Assembly (NCBI GenBank): GCA_017510785.1 | Contig: JAFWMH010000024.1 | Span: 1 to 64,000, forward strand | Source of the DNA: Atopobiaceae bacterium | GTDB lineage: Bacteria; Actinomycetota; Coriobacteriia; Coriobacteriales; Atopobiaceae | Reading direction: 5' to 3' | DNA: 64,000 nt | Program-made: the position numbers and the translations under genes | The notes under the pieces: model-generated | Seen by the model: the letters and a program-made list of their open reading frames with translations, nothing else | The model's database searches: none | What the model was told of the DNA's origin: nothing | In this document: positions 53,513 through 64,000 of the stretch, piece after piece | Numbering within the stretch: the stretch's first letter is position 1 | Layout: every line of letters begins with the position of its first letter

Positions 53513-54316
53513 CTACACCATGCGCTCGAGGATTTGCGCCACGGCATCCTCCTCCACAGGGCCAATCTCAACAGAGGCGGCAGCCTTTGCCGCAGGAGTG
53601 GCATTCTGCACCACTACAGCGTTCTCGAGGGCACTCAAAATCGCAAGGTCGTTATCTGCATCGCCGAACATCGCGACCTCATCCTTCGTAATGCCGAGAC
53701 GCTCCACAAGCCACTCGAGCGCCGTACCCTTGTTCACGCCCTTGGGCACAATGTCGGTCCACTTGGCAGACGGACGCACGAAGTCGAACTCAGGGCACAG
53801 CTCTTTTCCACGTTCAATGATTTCGAGCATCATGCTCTCCTCATGCGGGCATGCAATCGTGGCGCCAAGCACCTCAACATCGGGGAACTCGTCAACTACC
53901 ATTGGCCTAAACGAGAACTTCTCGGCCCAGGGAGCTATTTCCTCCTCCGTTGCACCAACGCAATAGATGTCGTTTTCAGGCGTTGCCTCCAATGGATACG
54001 CCGTAACGAACGTCTCTGGATATTCAGCAATGAGCTTGGCCATTCGATTGAGGCCGTCGTTATCGAGTAGCGTGAGCCGCACGACCTCGCCATCCACCTT
54101 GATCTTCTTTCCGTTGGAGAGAATACCCGTCTCGAATGGCTCGCTATGGCCTTCAAACTGCCTGAGGAGCTCCATTTCGTCGCGTCCCGTTGCCAATCCG
54201 AAGCGAATGCCCCCTTTCCGCAGCCGATGTATTGCCGCAAGCGTTCTCGCACTCGCATGCTCCTCGCCAAAGGGCACTAACGTCCCGTCCACATCCGACA
54301 ACACGAGTTTTATCAT
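53513..54316 (-). CDS. Cof-type HAD-superfamily phosphatase
   Basis: A 267-residue protein; AAGGAGG precedes the ATG. Motif I is LVLSDVDGTLVPFGEEH, motif II lies in FGLATGRDEMELL, and motifs III/IV are NKGTALEWLVERLG and EVAMFGDADNDLAILSALEN. The C2-type cap is present between them. Enzymes of this group remove phosphate from sugar phosphates, flavin precursors or other metabolites; the substrate cannot be read from sequence. Two paralogues lie 2.7-4.4 kb downstream. Confidence 0.92.
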   Translation of the reverse strand: MIKLVLSDVDGTLVPFGEEHASARTLAAIHRLRKGGIRFGLATGRDEMELLRQFEGHSEPFETGILSNGKKIKVDGEVVRLTLLDNDGLNRMAKLIAEYPETFVTAYPLEATPENDIYCVGATEEEIAPWAEKFSFRPMVVDEFPDVEVLGATIACPHEESMMLEIIERGKELCPEFDFVRPSAKWTDIVPKGVNKGTALEWLVERLGITKDEVAMFGDADNDLAILSALENAVVVQNATPAAKAAASVEIGPVEEDAVAQILERMV

Positions 54317-54377
54317 GTGCTTCCTCCTTACTCACTCAATAAGCGTTACCATTTTGGCACAAAGAAAGGACCTTGGC

Positions 54378-54950
54378 ATGCTCAACATCGTACTCGTACA
54401 ACCCGAAATCCCCGCCAACACCGGCAACATCGGCCGCACGTGCGTCCTTACCGGCTCGCGCCTCCACTTGGTAGGTCCCTTGGGCTTCGACCTCAGTGAT
54501 CGCGCCGTGCAACGCGCAGGCCTTGCCTATTGGCAGAGTCTCGATGTACGCACCTATGTGGATTGGGCCGAATTCGAAACAAAAGCCTTGCATGGCTCAT
54601 ACGAGGGCGTCCATCTCCTCACGAAAGCCGGATCGCTCGTATATACGGAGGCCGCCTATCACGACGAAGACTGGCTTGTATTTGGACGAGAGTCTTCGGG
54701 CCTCAGTCGCACCATCCTCGACGCGCACCCGAGTCGTTGCGAAAGAATCCCCATGTTGAATGACGACGCGCTCAGCAACGCACGCGACTGGCACGCACGC
54801 CACGACGAGCTGCATCCGGAATTGCGCCGCGACATTTGCGGTAACTTCGTCGACGAGCGCGAAGGACGCATCACATCCCTCAACCTCTCAAACGCCGTCG
54901 CCATCGTTGCCTACGAGGCGCTACGGCAACTCTCCTATCCCAATATGTGA
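54378..54950 (+). CDS. trmL: tRNA (cytidine/uridine-34 2'-O)-methyltransferase TrmL
   Basis: A 190-residue SPOUT methyltransferase. LNIVLVQPEIPANTGNIGRT, LVFGRESSGLSRTILDAHPS and ITSLNLSNAVAIVAYEALRQ are the three SPOUT motifs that form the trefoil knot and bind S-adenosylmethionine. It methylates the wobble ribose of certain leucine tRNAs. A C-terminal-half insertion (DALSNARDWHARHDELHPEL) makes it about 35 residues longer than E. coli TrmL. Confidence 0.93.
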   Translation: MLNIVLVQPEIPANTGNIGRTCVLTGSRLHLVGPLGFDLSDRAVQRAGLAYWQSLDVRTYVDWAEFETKALHGSYEGVHLLTKAGSLVYTEAAYHDEDWLVFGRESSGLSRTILDAHPSRCERIPMLNDDALSNARDWHARHDELHPELRRDICGNFVDEREGRITSLNLSNAVAIVAYEALRQLSYPNM

Positions 54951-54964
54951 GGGCACACAGGAAG

Positions 54965-55054
54965 GGATGGGGCAGGCACGGTGGGCGTTCGTGCTCAAAC
55001 AGCCGCGCGTTGCGCGGAACTGCGCGCGAAGCGCCCACCGTGCCTGCCCCATCC
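54965..55054. repeat. Stem-variable hairpin element, copy A
   Basis: Perfect 23-bp arms (54965-54987 and 55032-55054) enclose 44 bp. The enclosed core 54990-55028 aligns without gaps to 58561-58599 of copy B at 29 of 39 positions. It starts CGTGCTCA and ends GCGGAACTGCGCGCG in both. The arms of the two copies are unrelated. It sits between the convergent trmL and AI-2E-type permease genes. Confidence 0.85.
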
Positions 55055-55072
55055 TATCAGCTCACGAAACGT

Positions 55073-56233
55073 TCACCGCTCCGCAGCTTCTTGCTCCGCG
55101 GCCTCTTGCTCCGCGGCCTCGCTCTTCGCACGGCGACGATTCAAATCGATGAGCACGAGTTGCCGAATGGTCGATGCCGTAGGAATGGCTACGAGCATAC
55201 CGACGAAGCCAGCCACGCCACCGCCAATCGTAACCCCAATGGTAGTCCACACCGGCGGCAACACCGTGCGAGGGTCACCAATATGAGGCAATACGAACGT
55301 AGCTTCGAGCATTTGCGCAAAGCCTACCACGATTATGTACACGAGTGCCATCCATGGATTCGAAATCACGACCATGAACGCACCCGCAATAAGTCCCACC
55401 GGATAACCCACAATGGGCACCAACGCCGCCAAACCCATGAGAACGCCTACACCCAAGGCATAGTCGTATCCCATCACAAGTAGCGCCACCGTACCAACCG
55501 TCCCCAAAATGGCTGCCTCAAGGAATTGACGAACGATGAAGTTATGAAACGAGGAGTCTGCCACGCCCATCACGAGCGCAAGCTTCTCGGTTCGTTCCCT
55601 GCCGGCATATATTTCAATGACGTTCATGACGCTCAGGCCAACACCCGTAGTATCGGTAAGGAGTATGAACGAGAAGAGAAGGCCAAAGAATCCCGTCATA
55701 ATCACACTCACGACACCGAACAGCTGGGTGCCAAAAGAGGCCACGGTGCCTCCCATGGCGCCTTGAAAAAAGCCAACGATATCGAGCGAGGTAATGGTCT
55801 TCATGATGTCGCCATGCATAAACTCTTCAACAGGAGCCTTCACCGGCTCCAAGAGAGGATACCGTAGCAGCATTTCGATGAACACCGTGCTTCGCTTTTG
55901 CACCATGGCCATTGTCTCAACAAAAGCGGGTATGAACACAGAAGATGCCAAGAACAGGCCTACAAGTATGAGCATAATGGCTGTAATGAGGCTCACGGGC
56001 TTTCTAAGAGCACTCACGGCCTTCGACCGCGAATTCGGCAACAAGTGTCGCTCGATGAACCCGGTTGGAATTGAAACAACGTACGCGATGGCGGCGCCCA
56101 AAATGAGCGGGATGATTGCCGTCAAAACGATACCGATAAATCCCACTATTGCATCCCAGCTTCGCACGATGATGAGCGCAAGCATCACCAAGCCACCATA
56201 GATGGCAATTTGCCTGGTCGTGAGTTTTTGCAT
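55073..56233 (-). CDS. AI-2E-type (PerM/TqsA) permease
   Basis: A 386-residue protein with about eight membrane helices; AGGAGG precedes the ATG. The family block VGVLMGLAALVPIVGYPVGL and VVGFAQMLEATFVLPHIGDP is present. Such proteins export small molecules or ions; few have proven substrates. The C-terminal tail encodes three near-identical EAAEQ repeats from a 15-bp tandem repeat, so its length may vary between strains. Confidence 0.88.
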   Translation of the reverse strand: MQKLTTRQIAIYGGLVMLALIIVRSWDAIVGFIGIVLTAIIPLILGAAIAYVVSIPTGFIERHLLPNSRSKAVSALRKPVSLITAIMLILVGLFLASSVFIPAFVETMAMVQKRSTVFIEMLLRYPLLEPVKAPVEEFMHGDIMKTITSLDIVGFFQGAMGGTVASFGTQLFGVVSVIMTGFFGLLFSFILLTDTTGVGLSVMNVIEIYAGRERTEKLALVMGVADSSFHNFIVRQFLEAAILGTVGTVALLVMGYDYALGVGVLMGLAALVPIVGYPVGLIAGAFMVVISNPWMALVYIIVVGFAQMLEATFVLPHIGDPRTVLPPVWTTIGVTIGGGVAGFVGMLVAIPTASTIRQLVLIDLNRRRAKSEAAEQEAAEQEAAER

Positions 56234-56241
56234 TGAGCCTC

Positions 56242-57099
56242 CTATCCGCGTCCCATAAACGTTGGCAACGTACGCGTTCGCGCGGCGTCGGCGATTTGGA
56301 ACAGGGCGTCGGCCACTGCGTCATCGGCACTCGCCCCAATGTGCCAGCGCGCGGCACGCGCAACCTCTTCGCTTGCATTCGAGACCGCCACCGAATTAGG
56401 CACCGCTTCGATCATTGCGAGGTCATTCTCGGAATCCCCGAAAACCGCAACCTCGTCGAGCGTTATGCCCAGTTCCTTGGCTAAGAACTGCACCGCAGTA
56501 CCCTTGGTCCAACCTGCAGGCATAATGTCGATGAGCGGAGCCGTGGGACTTGGAAACACGAATTCCATGCTGGGATACTCCTCGCGCAGCATGTCGCGCA
56601 CCTCCGTAACATGCTCACGACTGCCTGCGCACCAAATGTTCGCCTTTACGTACGTAGGCTCATCGAGGCGTAGTGCATCGCCCCGTATGTGTGGAAACGC
56701 CTCATGGCACTCGGCGAGATGCTTGCGATCGGGCGAGACGAAGTAGCCCGCATCATCCTCAACAGGTGCATTAATATCGTAGATGGTAAGCACGCATTGC
56801 GGTATGTGCGAGAGCATCTCCGCGATGCTGTTGAGCTCGGGACCGTCAAGTCGTTCCACGTGTACGAGTTCGCCATCGAGGTAGATTATTTGGCCATTGG
56901 AATACGCCGCTGTAGCATAGCATGCCTCATCGTTATTGAACATCCACCCCATCGCACGAGGAATGCGCCCCGATACGGGCCCGAAGTGAAGACCGGCATC
57001 CAACATGGCATGTATGCCCTCCAACGCATGATCGGTCGCACGGGGCAGGCCATTGCGAATGAGTGTGTCGTCAAGGTCCGTTAGAACGAGCTTAATCAT
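56242..57099 (-). CDS. Cof-type HAD-superfamily phosphatase (paralogue 2)
   Basis: A 285-residue protein; GAGGAG precedes the ATG. Motif I is LVLTDLDDTLIRNGLP, with Asp in place of the usual Gly. The downstream motifs are TKGTAVQFLAKELG and EVAVFGDSENDLAMIEAVPN. The cap differs strongly from the 53513 protein. It is eight bases from the permease gene and 22 bases from the third paralogue, so the three form an operon. Confidence 0.9.
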   Translation of the reverse strand: MIKLVLTDLDDTLIRNGLPRATDHALEGIHAMLDAGLHFGPVSGRIPRAMGWMFNNDEACYATAAYSNGQIIYLDGELVHVERLDGPELNSIAEMLSHIPQCVLTIYDINAPVEDDAGYFVSPDRKHLAECHEAFPHIRGDALRLDEPTYVKANIWCAGSREHVTEVRDMLREEYPSMEFVFPSPTAPLIDIMPAGWTKGTAVQFLAKELGITLDEVAVFGDSENDLAMIEAVPNSVAVSNASEEVARAARWHIGASADDAVADALFQIADAARTRTLPTFMGRG

Positions 57100-57121
57100 T
57101 GGCTCTCCTCACATTAGCGAA

Positions 57122-57961
57122 TCAATCATGCATGTAGGCCGGCATCTCGCCCGTGCCTGCGGCTGCCACAATATCGAGCAACGCACTGGCAACCGCATCG
57201 TCGGCGCTCGAACCAATGTGCCAACGTGCGGCTTCGGCAGCCGCGGGAGTCGCGTTTGCCATTGCGGCGGAGTTTGGCACATAGCGCAGCACGTCGAGGT
57301 CGTTTTCGGCGTCACCAAACACAGCGACCTCGTCGAGACCAATGCCCAGCTCGCGCACAAGCACCTCAACGCCCTTCGCCTTGCTCCAGCCCTTTGAGGC
57401 AACATCGATGTAGTTGACGTGCGGATTCGGATACACGAAATCGAGCTCCGGGACCAAGTGCATAAGCTGGCGCCGCACCTCATGCAAACGCTTTTTATCT
57501 CCCACAACGCGAATGTTCGCCTTGTAGATCGGTCGGTCCTCCGGGATGCGCACACGTACATTGCCAATACGCCCGAACTCGGCATAATATTGGCCAATTT
57601 CCTGCGCCGAAATACCCACCGAATAACGATTGCCAAAATCGTTTATCATCAACGCTGTACCTGGGAAGTCATACACCGTGTTCGCAACCTTTTGCAACCC
57701 TTCGTGCGGAATGGGCTTGTCGAACACCAGCTCTCCGTCGATGTACACAAGCTGACCATTTACGGTAACTCCCGTTCGGTACGCCGCGCTATCCTCGGCA
57801 AACAGCAGGTGCAGGTCCCACGGCACACGACCTGTGCACGGACCAAAGCGAAGCCCGGCGTCGAGCATGGCGTGGATGGCTTCTAGCGCGTGGCGCGTGG
57901 CGTGCGGAAGGCCGACGCGGATAAGTGAATCGTCAAGATCGGTAAGCGCGAGCTTAATCAT
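57122..57961 (-). CDS. Cof-type HAD-superfamily phosphatase (paralogue 3)
   Basis: A 279-residue protein; the ATG at 57961 has GAAAGG upstream and encodes MIKLALTDLDDSLIRVGLPH. Later motifs are SKAKGVEVLVRELG and EVAVFGDAENDLDVLRYVPN. It is closely similar to its neighbour at 56242 (same RVGLPHATRHALEAIHAMLD-type segment), which points to a tandem duplication followed by divergence of the cap. The substrate is unknown. Confidence 0.9.
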   Translation of the reverse strand: MIKLALTDLDDSLIRVGLPHATRHALEAIHAMLDAGLRFGPCTGRVPWDLHLLFAEDSAAYRTGVTVNGQLVYIDGELVFDKPIPHEGLQKVANTVYDFPGTALMINDFGNRYSVGISAQEIGQYYAEFGRIGNVRVRIPEDRPIYKANIRVVGDKKRLHEVRRQLMHLVPELDFVYPNPHVNYIDVASKGWSKAKGVEVLVRELGIGLDEVAVFGDAENDLDVLRYVPNSAAMANATPAAAEAARWHIGSSADDAVASALLDIVAAAGTGEMPAYMHD

Positions 57962-58037
57962 GGCATGCCTTTCGTGAGTGTAATACACGTAAGAGTGTAT
58001 CATGAAGGTAGTGTACATCTATGCGAAAGGACCTACT

Positions 58038-58502
58038 ATGAAGCTGGCAATTGGAAACGACCATGCCGCCGTCGAGCTCAAGAACATTGTGATGGCACAC
58101 CTCGAGGAGCGCGGCATAGAGCTCGTTAACGTTGGCACCGATACTACGGAAAGCTTCGACTATCCCATCAGCGGTTATCGCGTAGGCAAACTCGTTGCGT
58201 CGGGTGAGGTAGATGGCGGCGTGTTGATATGCGGAACTGGCGTAGGCATAAGCCTCGCCGCAAACAAGGTGGAAGGCGTGCGCGCATGCGTGTGCTCGGA
58301 GCCTTATTCGGCCGCGCTCTCGAAACGGCACAACAACACGAACGTCATTTGCTTCGGTGCACGCGTCGTTGGCGACGAAATGGCCAAGCTCATCGTCGAC
58401 TCGTGGCTCGATGCCACGTACGAGGGCGGAAGGCACGATCGGCGTGTCGCCATGCTCAACGAAATCGATCGCACCGGCTCGCTCGCGGTGGCAGACGCAT
58501 AG
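58038..58502 (+). CDS. rpiB: Ribose-5-phosphate isomerase B
   Basis: A 154-residue RpiB/LacAB-fold isomerase. AIGNDHAAVELKNIVMAHLE and the catalytic loop GVLICGTGVGISLAANKVEG (Cys as base) are followed by SKRHNNTNVICFGARVVGDE. It interconverts ribose-5-phosphate and ribulose-5-phosphate in the pentose phosphate pathway. AAAGGA lies six bases before the ATG. It diverges from the HAD operon. Its stop codon begins an 18-bp repeat described separately. Confidence 0.94.
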   Translation: MKLAIGNDHAAVELKNIVMAHLEERGIELVNVGTDTTESFDYPISGYRVGKLVASGEVDGGVLICGTGVGISLAANKVEGVRACVCSEPYSAALSKRHNNTNVICFGARVVGDEMAKLIVDSWLDATYEGGRHDRRVAMLNEIDRTGSLAVADA

Positions 58503-58661
58503 CCTCTTTCGCACGCCCCCAAAGATTTGTCAAATGTCCCGTAAGTGGCCCGGAGAGCGCCGTGCTCACACAGTCCTCGTTCCTGCGGAACTGCGCGCGG
58601 CTGCTCCTCCGGGCCACTTTGCGATTTGACGCATCTTTAGGAGTAGCCTCTTTCGCACGCC
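58500..58661. repeat. 18-bp direct repeats bracketing a hairpin element
   Basis: TAGCCTCTTTCGCACGCC at 58500-58517 begins with the last bases of rpiB and recurs exactly at 58644-58661. The hairpin element copy B lies between. This resembles insertion of a small palindromic element with target duplication. Confidence 0.85.
58543..58619. repeat. Stem-variable hairpin element, copy B
   Basis: Arms AAGTGGCCCGGAG (58543-58555) and its complement (58607-58619) are perfect over 13 bp. An outer 7-bp pair (GTCAAAT, 58529-58535 and 58624-58630) extends the symmetry. The core 58561-58599 matches copy A at 29 of 39 positions. It lies between the convergent rpiB and CDF-GNAT genes. Confidence 0.82.
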
Positions 58662-58666
58662 GTGCC

Positions 58667-60394
58667 TCAGCAAACCCACTTGTTCACAATTGTGGGCTCG
58701 GGATAGCCCCAGTCTTCCTCGATGTAACGACCGGTTCGTATGAAGTCTGCCTTTTCGAGCACGCGTGCCGATGCCGTGTTCTCCACCATGGTACTTGCCG
58801 TAGCTATCTCTATGCTGGTTTTGGCATAGAGATAGCCCACCATAAGACGCGTTACCTCAGTAGCAATCCCCTGTCCCCACCAGCACCTGCGCAGTCTACA
58901 GCCTATGCTCACCTTGCGTAGGTTATCGCGAAGGCCGTAGAACTCAGCCAAACCAACGAACTCTCCGGTTTCTCGTATGCGAATAGCAAGGATGAGCGAC
59001 TCACTGTTGCTAAAGAGGTCGCCATAAGCATGACCGATTGCTTCTCTCGCATCAGTGTATTGTCTCTCAAACAAATACCTTGGCAACCAGCGTTGAACCA
59101 TTTGGTCGTCGCGCATGTGCTGCAGGGCATCAGCATCGGCATCCACAAGTCTGTCGAGCACAATACGCCTGCCCACAATGCAAGGGACCTCGTCAAACAA
59201 GCCCTTTCGCTCGTTTGCAGCGGCAGGTGTCGACGAGGTTTCCTCGCAGTACGCACGTGCAAGCTCCGCACGACGCCTCGCGCCATTCGCACGCAACTGC
59301 TCCTCGCGTTCGTCGAGTCTCCACCCGCCGCTCCCGTGCTCCTGCAACAGCTTCTCTTTTTCGTATGCCTCAAACTGAAGCCTGCGATCGCGCCGTTGGC
59401 GACTCACCTGGTTAAGACTTTCCGCCTCAATAAAAATACGCGTCGCTTGAGAATACTCACCAATGACCTCGTCCTCAATGCGGTCGATTGCCATGAGCAC
59501 TCCGCCCTCCGCTAAGTCATCGTTAAAGGTTACGTCGAGGTTAATGAGCAAGTCTTCCGGCCCCAGATACAGCGAAAGAACACGACCGCACTTCACAACA
59601 TCCGGGTCGCTCTCCACAATCGAAACAACATCGTTGACCTCTTCCAATGTCAACCCCTCGCCAATGAGCAGTCCGCGCGTCTCGCGCAAGAGCACAAGGG
59701 CAATGAGGGCCATTATCGCGCCAATAACGATTGATGCCCACGCATCGATTATGTAGTTCCCCGTTACCTGCGACGCAATGTTGCCCGCGAGTGCAACCAC
59801 CATGCCTGCTACCGCCGCAGTGTCTTCCAAGAACACCGTAATGTTCGTGGGACTCTTCGACTCGCGAATGTACGCAAAGATGCGCATGTCGCCACGCTCT
59901 TTGTTAACCGTGCGTACTGCCACCGATAAGGAAAAACCCTCGAACACAATGCCAATAACAAGCACCACATAATTTATGAGTGGGTTTTCGATGGGACGTC
60001 CACCAGCAAGAACTCCTTGGATGCCTTCGTAAATGACGAAGCCTCCTCCAAGCACGAATATAACGAGAGCGACCGCAAGGCTGTAAAAATACAATTCGGA
60101 ACCATAGCCAAAAGGATGCTGTACGTCCGGCTTGCGCTTCGAAAGCCTGTTGCCCACAAGCAAGAGCGAATCGTTGATGGCATCAACCATTGAGTGAATG
60201 CCTTCCGAAAACATGGCCGAGGAACCCGTTATTGCCGCAGCAAAGAACTTGACGGCAGAAACGATGGCGCCCGCCCCAACGGCCACCACCACGGCAGTGT
60301 TCTCGCCCAGCCGCTCGGCAGCATTGCGGTTTGCCCGTTTCTCACGCTGACGCTCCGCTCGTGCCTTTACGTCCTGCGTAACGTCATCGGTCAT
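58667..60394 (-). CDS. Cation diffusion facilitator fused to a GNAT acetyltransferase
   Basis: A 575-residue fusion. Residues 1-345 are a CDF transporter of the ZnT9/SLC30A9-like type: ITGSSAMFSEGIHSMVDAIN gives the metal-site H-x3-D, DVQHPFGYGSELYFYSLAVA is diagnostic, and VFLEDTAAVAGMVVALAGNI the second acidic site. A cytoplasmic domain (EVNDVVSIVESDPDVVKCGR) follows. A charged helical linker leads to a RimJ/RimL-type GNAT at about 405-575 (RRIVLDRLVDADADALQHMR, WWGQGIATEVTRLMVGYLYA, NTASARVLEKADFIRTG). The frame is continuous, with no internal ribosome site noticed. Metal transport joined to acetylation is unusual. Confidence 0.88.
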   Translation of the reverse strand: MTDDVTQDVKARAERQREKRANRNAAERLGENTAVVVAVGAGAIVSAVKFFAAAITGSSAMFSEGIHSMVDAINDSLLLVGNRLSKRKPDVQHPFGYGSELYFYSLAVALVIFVLGGGFVIYEGIQGVLAGGRPIENPLINYVVLVIGIVFEGFSLSVAVRTVNKERGDMRIFAYIRESKSPTNITVFLEDTAAVAGMVVALAGNIASQVTGNYIIDAWASIVIGAIMALIALVLLRETRGLLIGEGLTLEEVNDVVSIVESDPDVVKCGRVLSLYLGPEDLLINLDVTFNDDLAEGGVLMAIDRIEDEVIGEYSQATRIFIEAESLNQVSRQRRDRRLQFEAYEKEKLLQEHGSGGWRLDEREEQLRANGARRRAELARAYCEETSSTPAAANERKGLFDEVPCIVGRRIVLDRLVDADADALQHMRDDQMVQRWLPRYLFERQYTDAREAIGHAYGDLFSNSESLILAIRIRETGEFVGLAEFYGLRDNLRKVSIGCRLRRCWWGQGIATEVTRLMVGYLYAKTSIEIATASTMVENTASARVLEKADFIRTGRYIEEDWGYPEPTIVNKWVC

Positions 60395-60435
60395 CCCCCG
60401 CCCCCAATGCTATACTGCCATCGTCCATACGTTCG

Positions 60436-61545
60436 TTACGTGCTAAATGAGGTCTGCGCAATCTCACACGCCTTGTGCACGGCCTCTAACGTGAACGCGC
60501 CAGCACGGAGACGCTCCCCTACCTTACGGGCGTTATTCACCATAACAACGTATGCTTCCTCGGTAACTCCCGCCAATGCGTCATGCAAGTCGTACAGGCT
60601 CTCAACACACAGGCCAACACCCTCGTCGCGAATCACGTCGGCAATTGCCGCTTTGCTCCACGATACAACAGGCAAGCCGGACGCAAGATACAGTGACGTC
60701 TTGTGCGGATTGTTGATGGTTAGGTACGTACCGTACACACCCGAGCAAGTCGTCCCTTGTGGGCCATCCCATACCAAACCGAACCCGCCATCAAGTTTGC
60801 TAGGCAATTCGTCCGCAGGGAACGAACCCCTATACGTCACCCGCGGCCGGCTTTCGTTTGGCTCGTATCCATCGCCAAAGTACTCAAAGTCCACGTCATC
60901 GGGAATGTCGTACAAATACCCGGCTTTGTCTCTTCGCAAGTTGCCGGCTACAATAACCTTACGAAAACCGACCGACGCAGCCTGGTAGACCGGGACTCCC
61001 ATTGGGGCATCGGGCACGAGGTAGTCGAACAGCCGCAACGAGACGATGCGTTCCCGCGGATACCCTAAGTGCTCGGCCACGAAATCGGCCATATGATCGT
61101 TGTGGACGATAATAGCCTGCGCATACGAGAATACTGCCGATTCCTCCAGTTTGAAACGTTGCGCCTGCGCAAACGACACATCTCCCGTGAGTCCGAGCCG
61201 CACCGACTCAAGATCGTGCACAAGCAATATGAGACGAATGTCCTTCTTTTGCAACGCAGTAACCACTTTGCCAAACCAAATGGTGTGGCAAGCAAAGGGA
61301 ACCTGCATTACCACGCCGTCCCCTTTCTTAAGACTGCTCACCGCCTCGAGCCATCTATTCTTTGCCACACGATGGCCCTTGAGCTTGGCCAAGGCCCCTC
61401 CCACATCACGCCGCTCAACATCGCGCAACCCAAGGCGCGTGAAGCCTGCCTGCGCAAGAATAGCACTCACATCAGCCGGAGCCTTCGCACCTGCGTTTCG
61501 GGCCTCGCCGTCATCCGCCTCCGTTTGCACGTAATACCACTCCAT
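60436..61545 (-). CDS. Gtf3-like glycosyltransferase
   Basis: A 369-residue cytoplasmic protein; ATG 61545 follows AAGGATG, although a TTG six codons earlier is possible. It resembles Gtf3/galactofuranosyltransferase-type enzymes: GDGVVMQVPFACHTIWFGKV, IRLILLVHDLESVRLG, AIIVHNDHMADFVAEHLGYP, then VIVAGNLRRDKAGYLYDIPD and the nucleotide-sugar region GTTCSGVYGTYLTINNPHKT. The donor and acceptor are not readable. Co-direction with the flippase gene 24 bp upstream places it in a surface polysaccharide operon. Confidence 0.85.
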   Translation of the reverse strand: MEWYYVQTEADDGEARNAGAKAPADVSAILAQAGFTRLGLRDVERRDVGGALAKLKGHRVAKNRWLEAVSSLKKGDGVVMQVPFACHTIWFGKVVTALQKKDIRLILLVHDLESVRLGLTGDVSFAQAQRFKLEESAVFSYAQAIIVHNDHMADFVAEHLGYPRERIVSLRLFDYLVPDAPMGVPVYQAASVGFRKVIVAGNLRRDKAGYLYDIPDDVDFEYFGDGYEPNESRPRVTYRGSFPADELPSKLDGGFGLVWDGPQGTTCSGVYGTYLTINNPHKTSLYLASGLPVVSWSKAAIADVIRDEGVGLCVESLYDLHDALAGVTEEAYVVMVNNARKVGERLRAGAFTLEAVHKACEIAQTSFST

Positions 61546-61569
61546 GCAGCTCACATCCTTCAAGGATTG

Positions 61570-63021
61570 TTATTCTTTCCAGTACGCCAGACGGCCAAAC
61601 ACACGCGCAAAGTCCTCATTGCGCGTAACCATGCACCAGCCAAGCGATGCAACCAAATAGAACAACGCCGCCACCACAAACTCCACAAGCACACCAACAA
61701 CCGTGGGAGCAGTACTTCCAAGCAACTGTGCCACCATGCGCATGATCGCAATCATGGCGACGCCAATGCATGCAAAGGGAATGGCGCCAAACAGATTGGC
61801 GCGCAACTCGAACTCCTTGCGCACCACCACCGCTTGATACACAAGTACGGCCACCTCCGCCGCAATCGTGGCGATTGCGGCTCCCATCGCACCCATGGCG
61901 GTAATCGCAAACACATTTATTCCAAGATTGATAACTGCACCTGCACTCACCGAAAGCGTGAAGTCTCGATCACGATGATGTGGCAACAGGTATTGAACGC
62001 CTATAACGTTCGTTGCGCAAATGAGCGGAATAACCAGAGAAAGAACCCGCATGAGCGCCACGCACGGCTCGAATCCCGGCCCAAAGAACACGGGCACAAA
62101 CTCTGGCGCAATGCCAGCAATACCGCATGTTAGGGCAAACGCACACGCAAGCATAAACCACATGGTGGAGCGCACGAGCTGCTTGCCCTCCTCGACTCGA
62201 CCCGCAGCAATTACCTCACTCATCTTCGGCAACACCACCGAACCAAGGGCAGTAATTACGGCCAAAGGCATCTTCGCAATCTTCTCTGCGTAATCGTACA
62301 TGCCAGTTTGATCCATGCCAGCCATTGCGCCGAGCATGACCTTGTCGAGAAGTACATAGAGACTCGACGCTATTACCGGAACGAAGAGTGCAAGGTTTGG
62401 CTTAAGATGGCTTATGACTTTGGGCCAGGTAGGTCGCACCCAATCCACATAGCGCCCTACGAACGGCCAAATGAGCGCGGTATTCATGAGGAACGCGCCC
62501 GCAATAGCCGTAACATATGCCCAAATGTCGGTAGCGTCACGCACGAAGACGAAGATAAAAACTACCGACGCCAAACGAGTGATGAAGTTCCGGATGGTGG
62601 GCACCCGAAACTCCTGCATTCCGAACATAAGCCACGAGACGTCGCCCACCGAACCAATAATCCACATGCTCCAAAGCACCCATAGGAGCAACTGCTCTTG
62701 GCCCCACAGGACCACATATCCCGCGTAAGCCACAAGCACAATCGTCCCAACCAGGCAATTCATGGCAAACGCGTTCCAAAACAAGTCGGATCGAGCGGCA
62801 CGATCGTCACCACATTCGGCAACGCTTCGCACACCATAATTTGCCATACCGAGCATGGCAAACAGCACGAAGTAGTTTACAATAGATTGTGTATACGTAA
62901 ATATGCCATCGCCTTCCGCACCGATAACTCGGGAGAGATACGGTGTGGTTACGATGGGAGTAAGCACCAAAAGAATCTGGTATGCAGAGCTATAGATAAA
63001 GTTCTTGCGAATGCCCGCCAT
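61570..63021 (-). CDS. Wzx-type polysaccharide flippase
   Basis: A 483-residue protein with about 12-14 membrane helices of the MOP/MATE-like exporter family. It begins FIYSSAYQILLVLTPIVTTP followed by YLSRVIGAEGDGIFTYTQSI, the typical Wzx opening, and contains KVMLGAMAGMDQTGMYDYAE. It moves lipid-linked oligosaccharide units across the membrane. Its start overlaps the upstream gene stop (TGATG), so the genes are coupled. Confidence 0.93.
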   Translation of the reverse strand: MAGIRKNFIYSSAYQILLVLTPIVTTPYLSRVIGAEGDGIFTYTQSIVNYFVLFAMLGMANYGVRSVAECGDDRAARSDLFWNAFAMNCLVGTIVLVAYAGYVVLWGQEQLLLWVLWSMWIIGSVGDVSWLMFGMQEFRVPTIRNFITRLASVVFIFVFVRDATDIWAYVTAIAGAFLMNTALIWPFVGRYVDWVRPTWPKVISHLKPNLALFVPVIASSLYVLLDKVMLGAMAGMDQTGMYDYAEKIAKMPLAVITALGSVVLPKMSEVIAAGRVEEGKQLVRSTMWFMLACAFALTCGIAGIAPEFVPVFFGPGFEPCVALMRVLSLVIPLICATNVIGVQYLLPHHRDRDFTLSVSAGAVINLGINVFAITAMGAMGAAIATIAAEVAVLVYQAVVVRKEFELRANLFGAIPFACIGVAMIAIMRMVAQLLGSTAPTVVGVLVEFVVAALFYLVASLGWCMVTRNEDFARVFGRLAYWKE

Positions 63022-64000
63022 CAGCCGTCACCCGCTCTACACGCAGAACAAACAAGGAGCAAAAGTGCGATGCCCGCTCCCAGTACACCAATGGAGAGCG
63101 CGAAAAAAATCGCAAGTTCCGTCTCGCCACGGTCGATGCGCTCGCACTTGATTTCGCCATACCGAAGAGTGAATTTGTTCTTCACCATCCACGACACCTT
63201 GCTAGCCACCCTTACGGCTTGTCGGGCAAACTTCATCGAACCCTCTTCATCGAATGAGGTACAATGCATCTCCACGCCATCGGCCAGAATCGATGCCTCC
63301 GTAAGGTATTGGTCGGAGTCTTTTATGCCCAACTGTGACGTCGTAGTAAGATGAACGCTTTGCGATCCCAGAATGTATACCACGTGATCGAGACTATAAG
63401 CATCGGTTATGAGCTTGTTGTCTTTTAAGCTGCGAACTTCCACGTTCGTACGGGCCACGTACGAAGCCGGAAGCACGCTCGAGCCAACAACATACATACC
63501 CGCACCCGCAAGTAGTGCAATCCCGCAGGTGGCACAAACGGCTGCCACAATATCGCCAATTCGAAACCTGGTCACACATCGCGGAGCAGGTCCGCCAGCG
63601 AACGACGTTCTGTTGACGAATAGTATGGTTTCGCCCAAGCCCATCCCGAGCACCGCCATCGAAATCGGCAGGTACGTAACCACCGTTACCGCCCACATGA
63701 CGGCATACACCACACCGAAGTACGTTAGCTTGGGCTTTTTGCGCAAGAAGAAACCCACAAGGCCCAGCGCATAGCTCGCAAAAAGCACAATGCCGCCAAA
63801 GGCCAGCACTTGCATTATGGTGTTGCTCATACCGGTGTTGTTGATTCTAAAGCCTGCCATCTGGTTAAGGATGGCTTGGTCGGACTTGAGTCCATTGCCC
63901 AAAAGCGGACTCTTCTGCCACGCACGAAAACCAGCCACATAGTCGTCCATGCGAATCGCCCACGAGGGTGAAGTAATCTTCTTTCCCACCACCACAACAA
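63021..64000 (-). CDS. Wzy-like polymerase C-terminus joined to a Wzz-like module, partial
   Basis: The frame enters from beyond the window. The first visible part (MDDYVAGFRAWQKSPLLGNG, then NTGMSNTIMQVLAFGGIVLF) is the last periplasmic loop and helices of an O-antigen polymerase/ligase (Wzy/WaaL) protein. After two more helices near LPISMAVLGMGLGETILFVN there is a new helix (DIVAAVCATCGIALLAGAGM). An outside domain follows (YVARTNVEVRSLKDNKLITD, DQYLTEASILADGVEMHCTS) and a final helix (AIFFALSIGVLGAGIALLLL), a Wzz/chain-length-like layout. The join is in one open frame. Whether it is one protein needs the missing 5' part. Confidence 0.7.
   Translation of the reverse strand, partial: VVVVGKKITSPSWAIRMDDYVAGFRAWQKSPLLGNGLKSDQAILNQMAGFRINNTGMSNTIMQVLAFGGIVLFASYALGLVGFFLRKKPKLTYFGVVYAVMWAVTVVTYLPISMAVLGMGLGETILFVNRTSFAGGPAPRCVTRFRIGDIVAAVCATCGIALLAGAGMYVVGSSVLPASYVARTNVEVRSLKDNKLITDAYSLDHVVYILGSQSVHLTTTSQLGIKDSDQYLTEASILADGVEMHCTSFDEEGSMKFARQAVRVASKVSWMVKNKFTLRYGEIKCERIDRGETELAIFFALSIGVLGAGIALLLLVCSACRAGDG

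Follow-up and report, generated by a model that had tools for sequence, protein, structure and literature searches.

A CDF metal transporter joined to a GNAT acetyltransferase in one reading frame in gut Coriobacteriia

Known members of the CDF family of metal transporters work as a dimer. An HxxxD or DxxxD motif in transmembrane domain (TMD) V defines the Zn-, Fe/Zn- and Mn-CDF groups, and the ZnT9-like cluster is the exception, with a histidine in TMD II and VxxxD in TMD V, according to the consulted sections of Montanini et al. 2007 (PMC1868760). In those sections, the ZnT9-like cluster is the sole mixed prokaryotic–eukaryotic cluster, has bacterial members and was without biochemical characterization at that time; the word "acetyltransferase" does not occur in that paper. 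The protein described here has the same His in TMD II, the same VxxxD in TMD V and a full CDF domain, and differs from the cluster in its added C-terminal GNAT domain. Among solved structures, YiiP/FieF and ZnT7 share the fold of its residues about 25–332 (Z about 19–21), but are about 16–18% identical to it, have another TM5 metal motif and lack an enzyme domain. RimJ/RimL-type GNATs, including RimJ, RimL, 3fbu, 2fck and PA3944 of Pseudomonas aeruginosa, share the fold of residues about 400–575 (Z about 15–17.5) and, unlike the fusion, come without a transporter.

The fusion gene lies at 58667–60394 (−) of the window, a 64,000-nucleotide stretch from an Atopobiaceae bacterium, and is a single open frame of 575 codons that begins with ATG and ends with TGA, with Pfam hits in both halves and full-length orthologues. 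The CDF half, residues 31–325 (59420–60304, −), comprises the membrane helices and a cytoplasmic α/β domain. It matches Pfam Cation_efflux (PF01545) over residues 36–243 (4.6e-36, 124.9 bits versus a cut-off of 26.6) and the NCBIfam CDF model TIGR01297 over residues 34–327 (6.1e-39, 134 bits versus 82.35), and thus belongs to the CDF family by both curated cut-offs, as well as by the helix bundle and cytoplasmic α/β domain of its structure model. The GNAT half, residues 397–575 (58670–59206, −), was delimited by Pfam, an alignment of relatives and a fold match. Residues 410–551 match Acetyltransf_3 (PF13302) over profile positions 1–137 of 138 (3.1e-22, 80.2 bits versus a cut-off of 25.4), and this near-complete match, together with the fold match to GNATs including RimJ and RimL, bears out the initial annotation of a complete RimJ/RimL-type GNAT.

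An artefact, whether a missed stop, a frameshift or a chimeric contig, is ruled out by eight further genomes with a full-length frame. These copies are about 67–82% identical to the fusion of the window, and because they stand in other genomes, chance or sequencing error is excluded. The uninterrupted frame that had been proposed is therefore present without an internal stop, none is hidden between the domains, and single frames in nine genomes of two families refute the possibility that orthologues are always split in two. Judged from sequence, the fusion is a genuine single polypeptide. Two proteins could still be made from the one frame through an internal start before the GNAT, in an operon-like manner, and several copies carry candidate GTG or TTG codons with purine-rich stretches near the GNAT start. 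We consider this improbable, as the candidate codons do not fall at one conserved position and the frame runs open through the linker in 8/8 full-length copies translated.

The full-length fusion occurs in at least 9 of 395 genomes of the order, representing three genera and two families. When 100 genomes were searched with the whole protein, at least six carried it, all of them belonging to the genus of the window, where they account for 6 of 16 genomes with the source genome counted in. The second family contributes G411 and G460 (genus g101) and G396 (g104), found in samples of the class (n = 396) and the order (n = 395); in G370 the fusion is interrupted by a contig end. Among the candidates scored in a phylum sample of 396 genomes, only the window's own genome had the fusion, and none of 88 matching records among 72,556 plasmid records covered 80% of it. 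At most three candidates were scored per genome in the alignment searches, so that all these counts are lower bounds. Stand-alone GNATs of the same family are found in most genomes of the genus, whereas unfused ZnT9-like CDFs are not listed there, only CDFs about 20–28% identical. Genomes of g101 and g104 (G411, G366, G370, G396 and G459) do have an unfused ZnT9-like CDF besides. Three other long open frames were rejected as further fusions, since Pfam finds the GNAT alone in L038 (344 aa) and L045 (359 aa) and the CDF alone in L050 (1228 aa); the long frames of L059, L064 and L067 were judged by eye.

No characterized protein of this design, as had been supposed, is described in the literature searched. 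That search found no description of a CDF–GNAT fusion, and because UniProt, InterPro and subscription journals lay outside it, the combination may already stand in some automatic domain-architecture list.

The metal site assigns the transporter half to its group. TM2 carries H67xxxD71 (60182–60196, −) and TM5 carries V187xxxD191 (59822–59836, −), which is neither HxxxD nor DxxxD and places the fusion outside the Zn-, Fe/Zn- and Mn-CDF groups. All 14 CDFs that were aligned share H67, D71, E190 and D191. Because H67 and the VxxxD motif match the ZnT9-like pattern as defined in the sections of PMC1868760 cited above, the name "ZnT9-like" is right by motif pattern. The initial annotation had also spoken of both metal-site motifs, and this phrase is half right: the TM2 motif stands, while in TM5 neither a His nor an Asp is found four residues before D191.

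A monomeric structure model of the fusion, built from a 28-row alignment, is of middling confidence (mean pLDDT 74, pTM 0.44). It predicts long helices in the membrane and a CDF-type cytoplasmic domain that extends to residue 325; the GNAT fold begins near residue 400, and two helices, 327–352 and 361–386, fall in the region between. The charged helical linker described earlier is in this respect borne out. Its two parts differ in conservation: the CDF tail helix, residues 326–350 (59345–59419, −), is strongly conserved, and residues 351–396 (59207–59344, −), which contain the second helix, are variable.

The catalytic features of the GNAT appear intact. Residues 506–509, W-G-Q-G (58868–58879, −), which we take to be the acetyl-CoA loop, include W506, G507 and G509, and these, like the conserved N539, are invariant in 20 aligned relatives and kept equally in fused and unfused copies. 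Among solved structures, PA3944 gives the best sequence match (2e-4). NCBIfam lists no GNAT model for the fusion, which reaches no GNAT cut-off there, including the equivalog cut-off for RimJ/RimL ribosomal-protein acetyltransferases, and its relatives fall far short, for example 29.9 versus 190 bits. The stand-alone GNATs of the genus are about 49–69% identical to the enzyme half of the fusion, and some share its helix at their N-terminus.

Codon comparison of eight full-length copies in six pairs, in several of which synonymous sites are near saturation, gave pN/pS values of 0.05–0.19 for the CDF, 0.05–0.25 for the tail helix (326–350), 0.44–0.77 for the linker (351–396) and 0.18–0.30 for the GNAT. 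Both halves are under purifying selection, and the middle part of the linker is a spacer under loose constraint, as follows from the low values in the halves against those in the linker. In intact copies the CDF is conserved even more strongly than the GNAT, and this could also be a sign that coupling between them matters. One form of coupling, raised in the initial annotation alongside acetylation of a buffer of the transported ion, is metal regulation, in which cation binding at the CDF cytoplasmic domain would alter the tail helix and thereby turn the attached GNAT on or off. The helix directly follows that domain and is strongly conserved where the rest of the linker is not, and titles in the reference list of PMC7170241, in the portion consulted, refer to cation-induced conformational changes of the CDF cytoplasmic domain. 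We nevertheless regard this as unlikely: unfused sister CDFs have the tail helix just as well, which means that no GNAT is needed to explain why it is conserved; the variable middle linker argues against finely tuned transmission; and GNATs of the family without a CDF are common.

A second form of coupling would have the GNAT tune transport by acetylating the transporter, at its lysines or N-terminus, or the transporter's partners. The tethered enzyme would lie near the charged N-terminal region, whose Arg/Lys-rich stretch is kept in fused copies. That stretch is, however, among the less conserved parts of the protein (pN/pS 0.24–0.58), and stand-alone GNATs of the family occur in genomes of the genus where no ZnT9-like CDF was found, making such self-modification a rather improbable explanation of the fusion.

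The history of the fusion can be approached from each half. In the CDF tree, all 10 fused members tested fall into a single clade (100/100 support), whose sister is a small unfused set (G350, G278, G098 and G081). Since the fused CDFs form one clade, the join in gut Coriobacteriia probably happened once, and two independent fusions are not supported on the CDF side. The unfused sisters end in ESLNQVYRQRxDRxxAFEE or a close variant, the same helix that opens the fusion linker. For this reason, the first linker helix would most simply be the transporter's own tail. Several stand-alone GNATs also start with what looks to be this helix.

The GNAT tree, of 48 rows, contains a 27-row clade (97/96) uniting the fused GNATs with stand-alone GNATs that have an N-terminal extension; it also takes in two cut rows, L024 and L113, and the unextended L114. 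Within this clade the 11 fused GNATs do not form a clade of their own, and their forced monophyly was rejected (AU p 0.0115; p 0.0225 with an earlier 42-row set), in a test whose group was chosen with earlier trees already in view and on a tree whose inner branches are weak. L024 and L113, as cut frames, and L026, with its unclear start, were excluded from trait counts; L073 was excluded from all trees, and L121 was dropped from the final tree for its very long branch.

The N-terminal extensions of 12 stand-alone GNATs were compared with the tails of unfused CDFs only, in ungapped alignments with 1500 shuffles each. Shuffled sequences matched the CDF tail as well in 0 cases for G424, 2 for the paralogue in the window's own genome (G000:C12), 4 for G421 and 24 for G001. 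The remaining 8/12 extensions were not significant alone (133 to 1461 of 1500), and three charged control stretches gave 267, 382 and 439 of 1500. By eye, the best alignment is in the same register for 11/12 extensions, which does not amount to eleven independent results because the sequences are related to one another.

Damaged copies in three genomes, all draft assemblies in which assembly errors are therefore possible, show the transporter half failing while the GNAT stays whole. In G458, the front residues (1–67 of G396) and a middle CDF piece lie in different frames and are separated by deletions that, measured against G396, remove about 460 and 377 bases; the GNAT that comes after them is intact, at 84% DNA identity to G396. 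In G459, about 20 residues of the usual front come first; the cytoplasmic part of the CDF, the linker and the GNAT then continue in a different frame, and the membrane part is missing. In G366, the match sets in near residue 173 of the model, the sequence ahead of it is unrelated, and the GNAT, linker and part of the CDF are kept. A clear start codon of the GNAT frame was not established in G458 or G459. The opposite case, an intact fused CDF with a broken GNAT, was found in none of the copies examined, G370 not being judgeable at its contig end. Upstream of stand-alone GNATs, 17 loci gave weak matches to CDF remnants (E ≥ 0.76), of which the strongest is the own-genome paralogue's tail helix; clear CDF remnants are confined to G458 and to G459, the latter having a short piece of the front recognized by eye.

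The GNAT tree, the CDF-tail-like extensions and the damaged copies together favour repeated loss of the CDF, and it seems from these comparisons that one fusion was followed by repeated loss of the transporter half while the GNAT was kept. The reverse order, in which a GNAT with the helix came first and later joined a CDF with a similar tail, is possible.

The surroundings of the gene are not shared among copies, and no neighbour common to all of them was found. In the window, the fusion is neighboured by glycosyltransferase-like and flippase-like genes; the upstream glycosyltransferase-like frame, with a Pfam match under its cut-off, ends 41 bases before the fusion start, and rpiB converges on the fusion gene from the other side. 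UvrB lies downstream of the fusion in G014, G010 and, by ORF family, G009, and a PARG-like gene lies upstream in G014. Several of the stand-alone GNATs, which come without a transporter, adjoin other membrane genes: an MscS-type channel in G014, with the same ORF family near in G011 and G004; BrkB in G001, with the same ORF family in G002; and an ABC ATPase beside the own-genome paralogue. These neighbours hint, but no more than hint, at a membrane-linked role of the GNAT family.

In G015 and G013 (L043:4782–8634 and L044:3677–7524), a stand-alone GNAT directly follows a gene for an SNF2-type helicase, and in G014, G010 and G009 a member of that helicase ORF family is located some kilobases away from the fusion. 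The second GNAT of this protein family in the own genome (L045:7299–8375, G000:C12) has a CDF-tail-like start and, ahead of the enzyme domain, a Pro-, Val- and Gly-rich insert of roughly 100 residues, in whose DNA TRF found no tandem repeat.

Just beyond the 3′ end of the fusion lies a strongly palindromic intergenic repeat of about 128 bases (58515–58642), with an RNA fold of −74 kcal/mol (z −8.8). At least 40 further matching stretches occur in the same genome at 81–94% identity (40 of 113 candidates scored). The repeat is flanked by exact 18-bp direct repeats (58500–58517 and 58644–58661), whose length is not matched in four other copies examined: two have matching flanks of 10 and 13 bp, and two have none. 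Rfam gave no match in 54000–64000. Further along the same side are three related hydrolase genes of one ORF family (53513–54316, 56242–57099 and 57122–58018, −), the first two of which are separated by a long membrane-protein-like frame; the third, the only one of the three searched, is a HAD-type Hydrolase_3 by Pfam.

The losses of the CDF half in several genomes, the patchy distribution and the absence of conserved neighbours would fit a neutral accident, in which gene loss and mobility left the fusion behind without any benefit to function. The purifying selection that both halves show in comparisons across genera, and full-length copies in at least nine genomes, make this the least probable of the explanations weighed here.

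The reading that we favour, and hold to be reasonably probable, is that a ZnT9-like transporter, probably a homodimer, tethers an intact-looking GNAT, that the two were joined once, and that the halves have largely separate jobs. The cytoplasmic C-terminal helix of the CDF would lead through the flexible charged linker into the acetyltransferase. The main effect would most likely be tethering, with two GNAT domains kept at the membrane's inner face by the transporter dimer. The CDF half would export divalent cations, and the GNAT half would acetylate an amine on a protein N-terminus or a small molecule. Tight coupling is opposed by the stand-alone GNATs in most genomes of the genus and by three genomes in which an intact GNAT accompanies a damaged CDF; since the GNAT can occur and be retained with no transporter attached, the tasks of the halves are probably largely distinct.

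A bolder possibility, suggested by the geometry of the protein and in our estimation a long shot, is a metal-gated, membrane-bound acetyltransferase, in which the C-terminal domain of the CDF would read cytoplasmic divalent cation and the conserved tail helix would signal to the paired GNATs. If true, this would be a direct bacterial link from metal level to the acetylation of proteins or metabolites, and acetylation dependent on metal would be a new kind of metal signalling. Both domains are ordinary; their combination and its history are not. Related gut bacteria hold a natural series of intact, damaged and separated forms of the fusion, and the purpose of the fusion is thereby directly testable by comparing fused and split forms of the same family.
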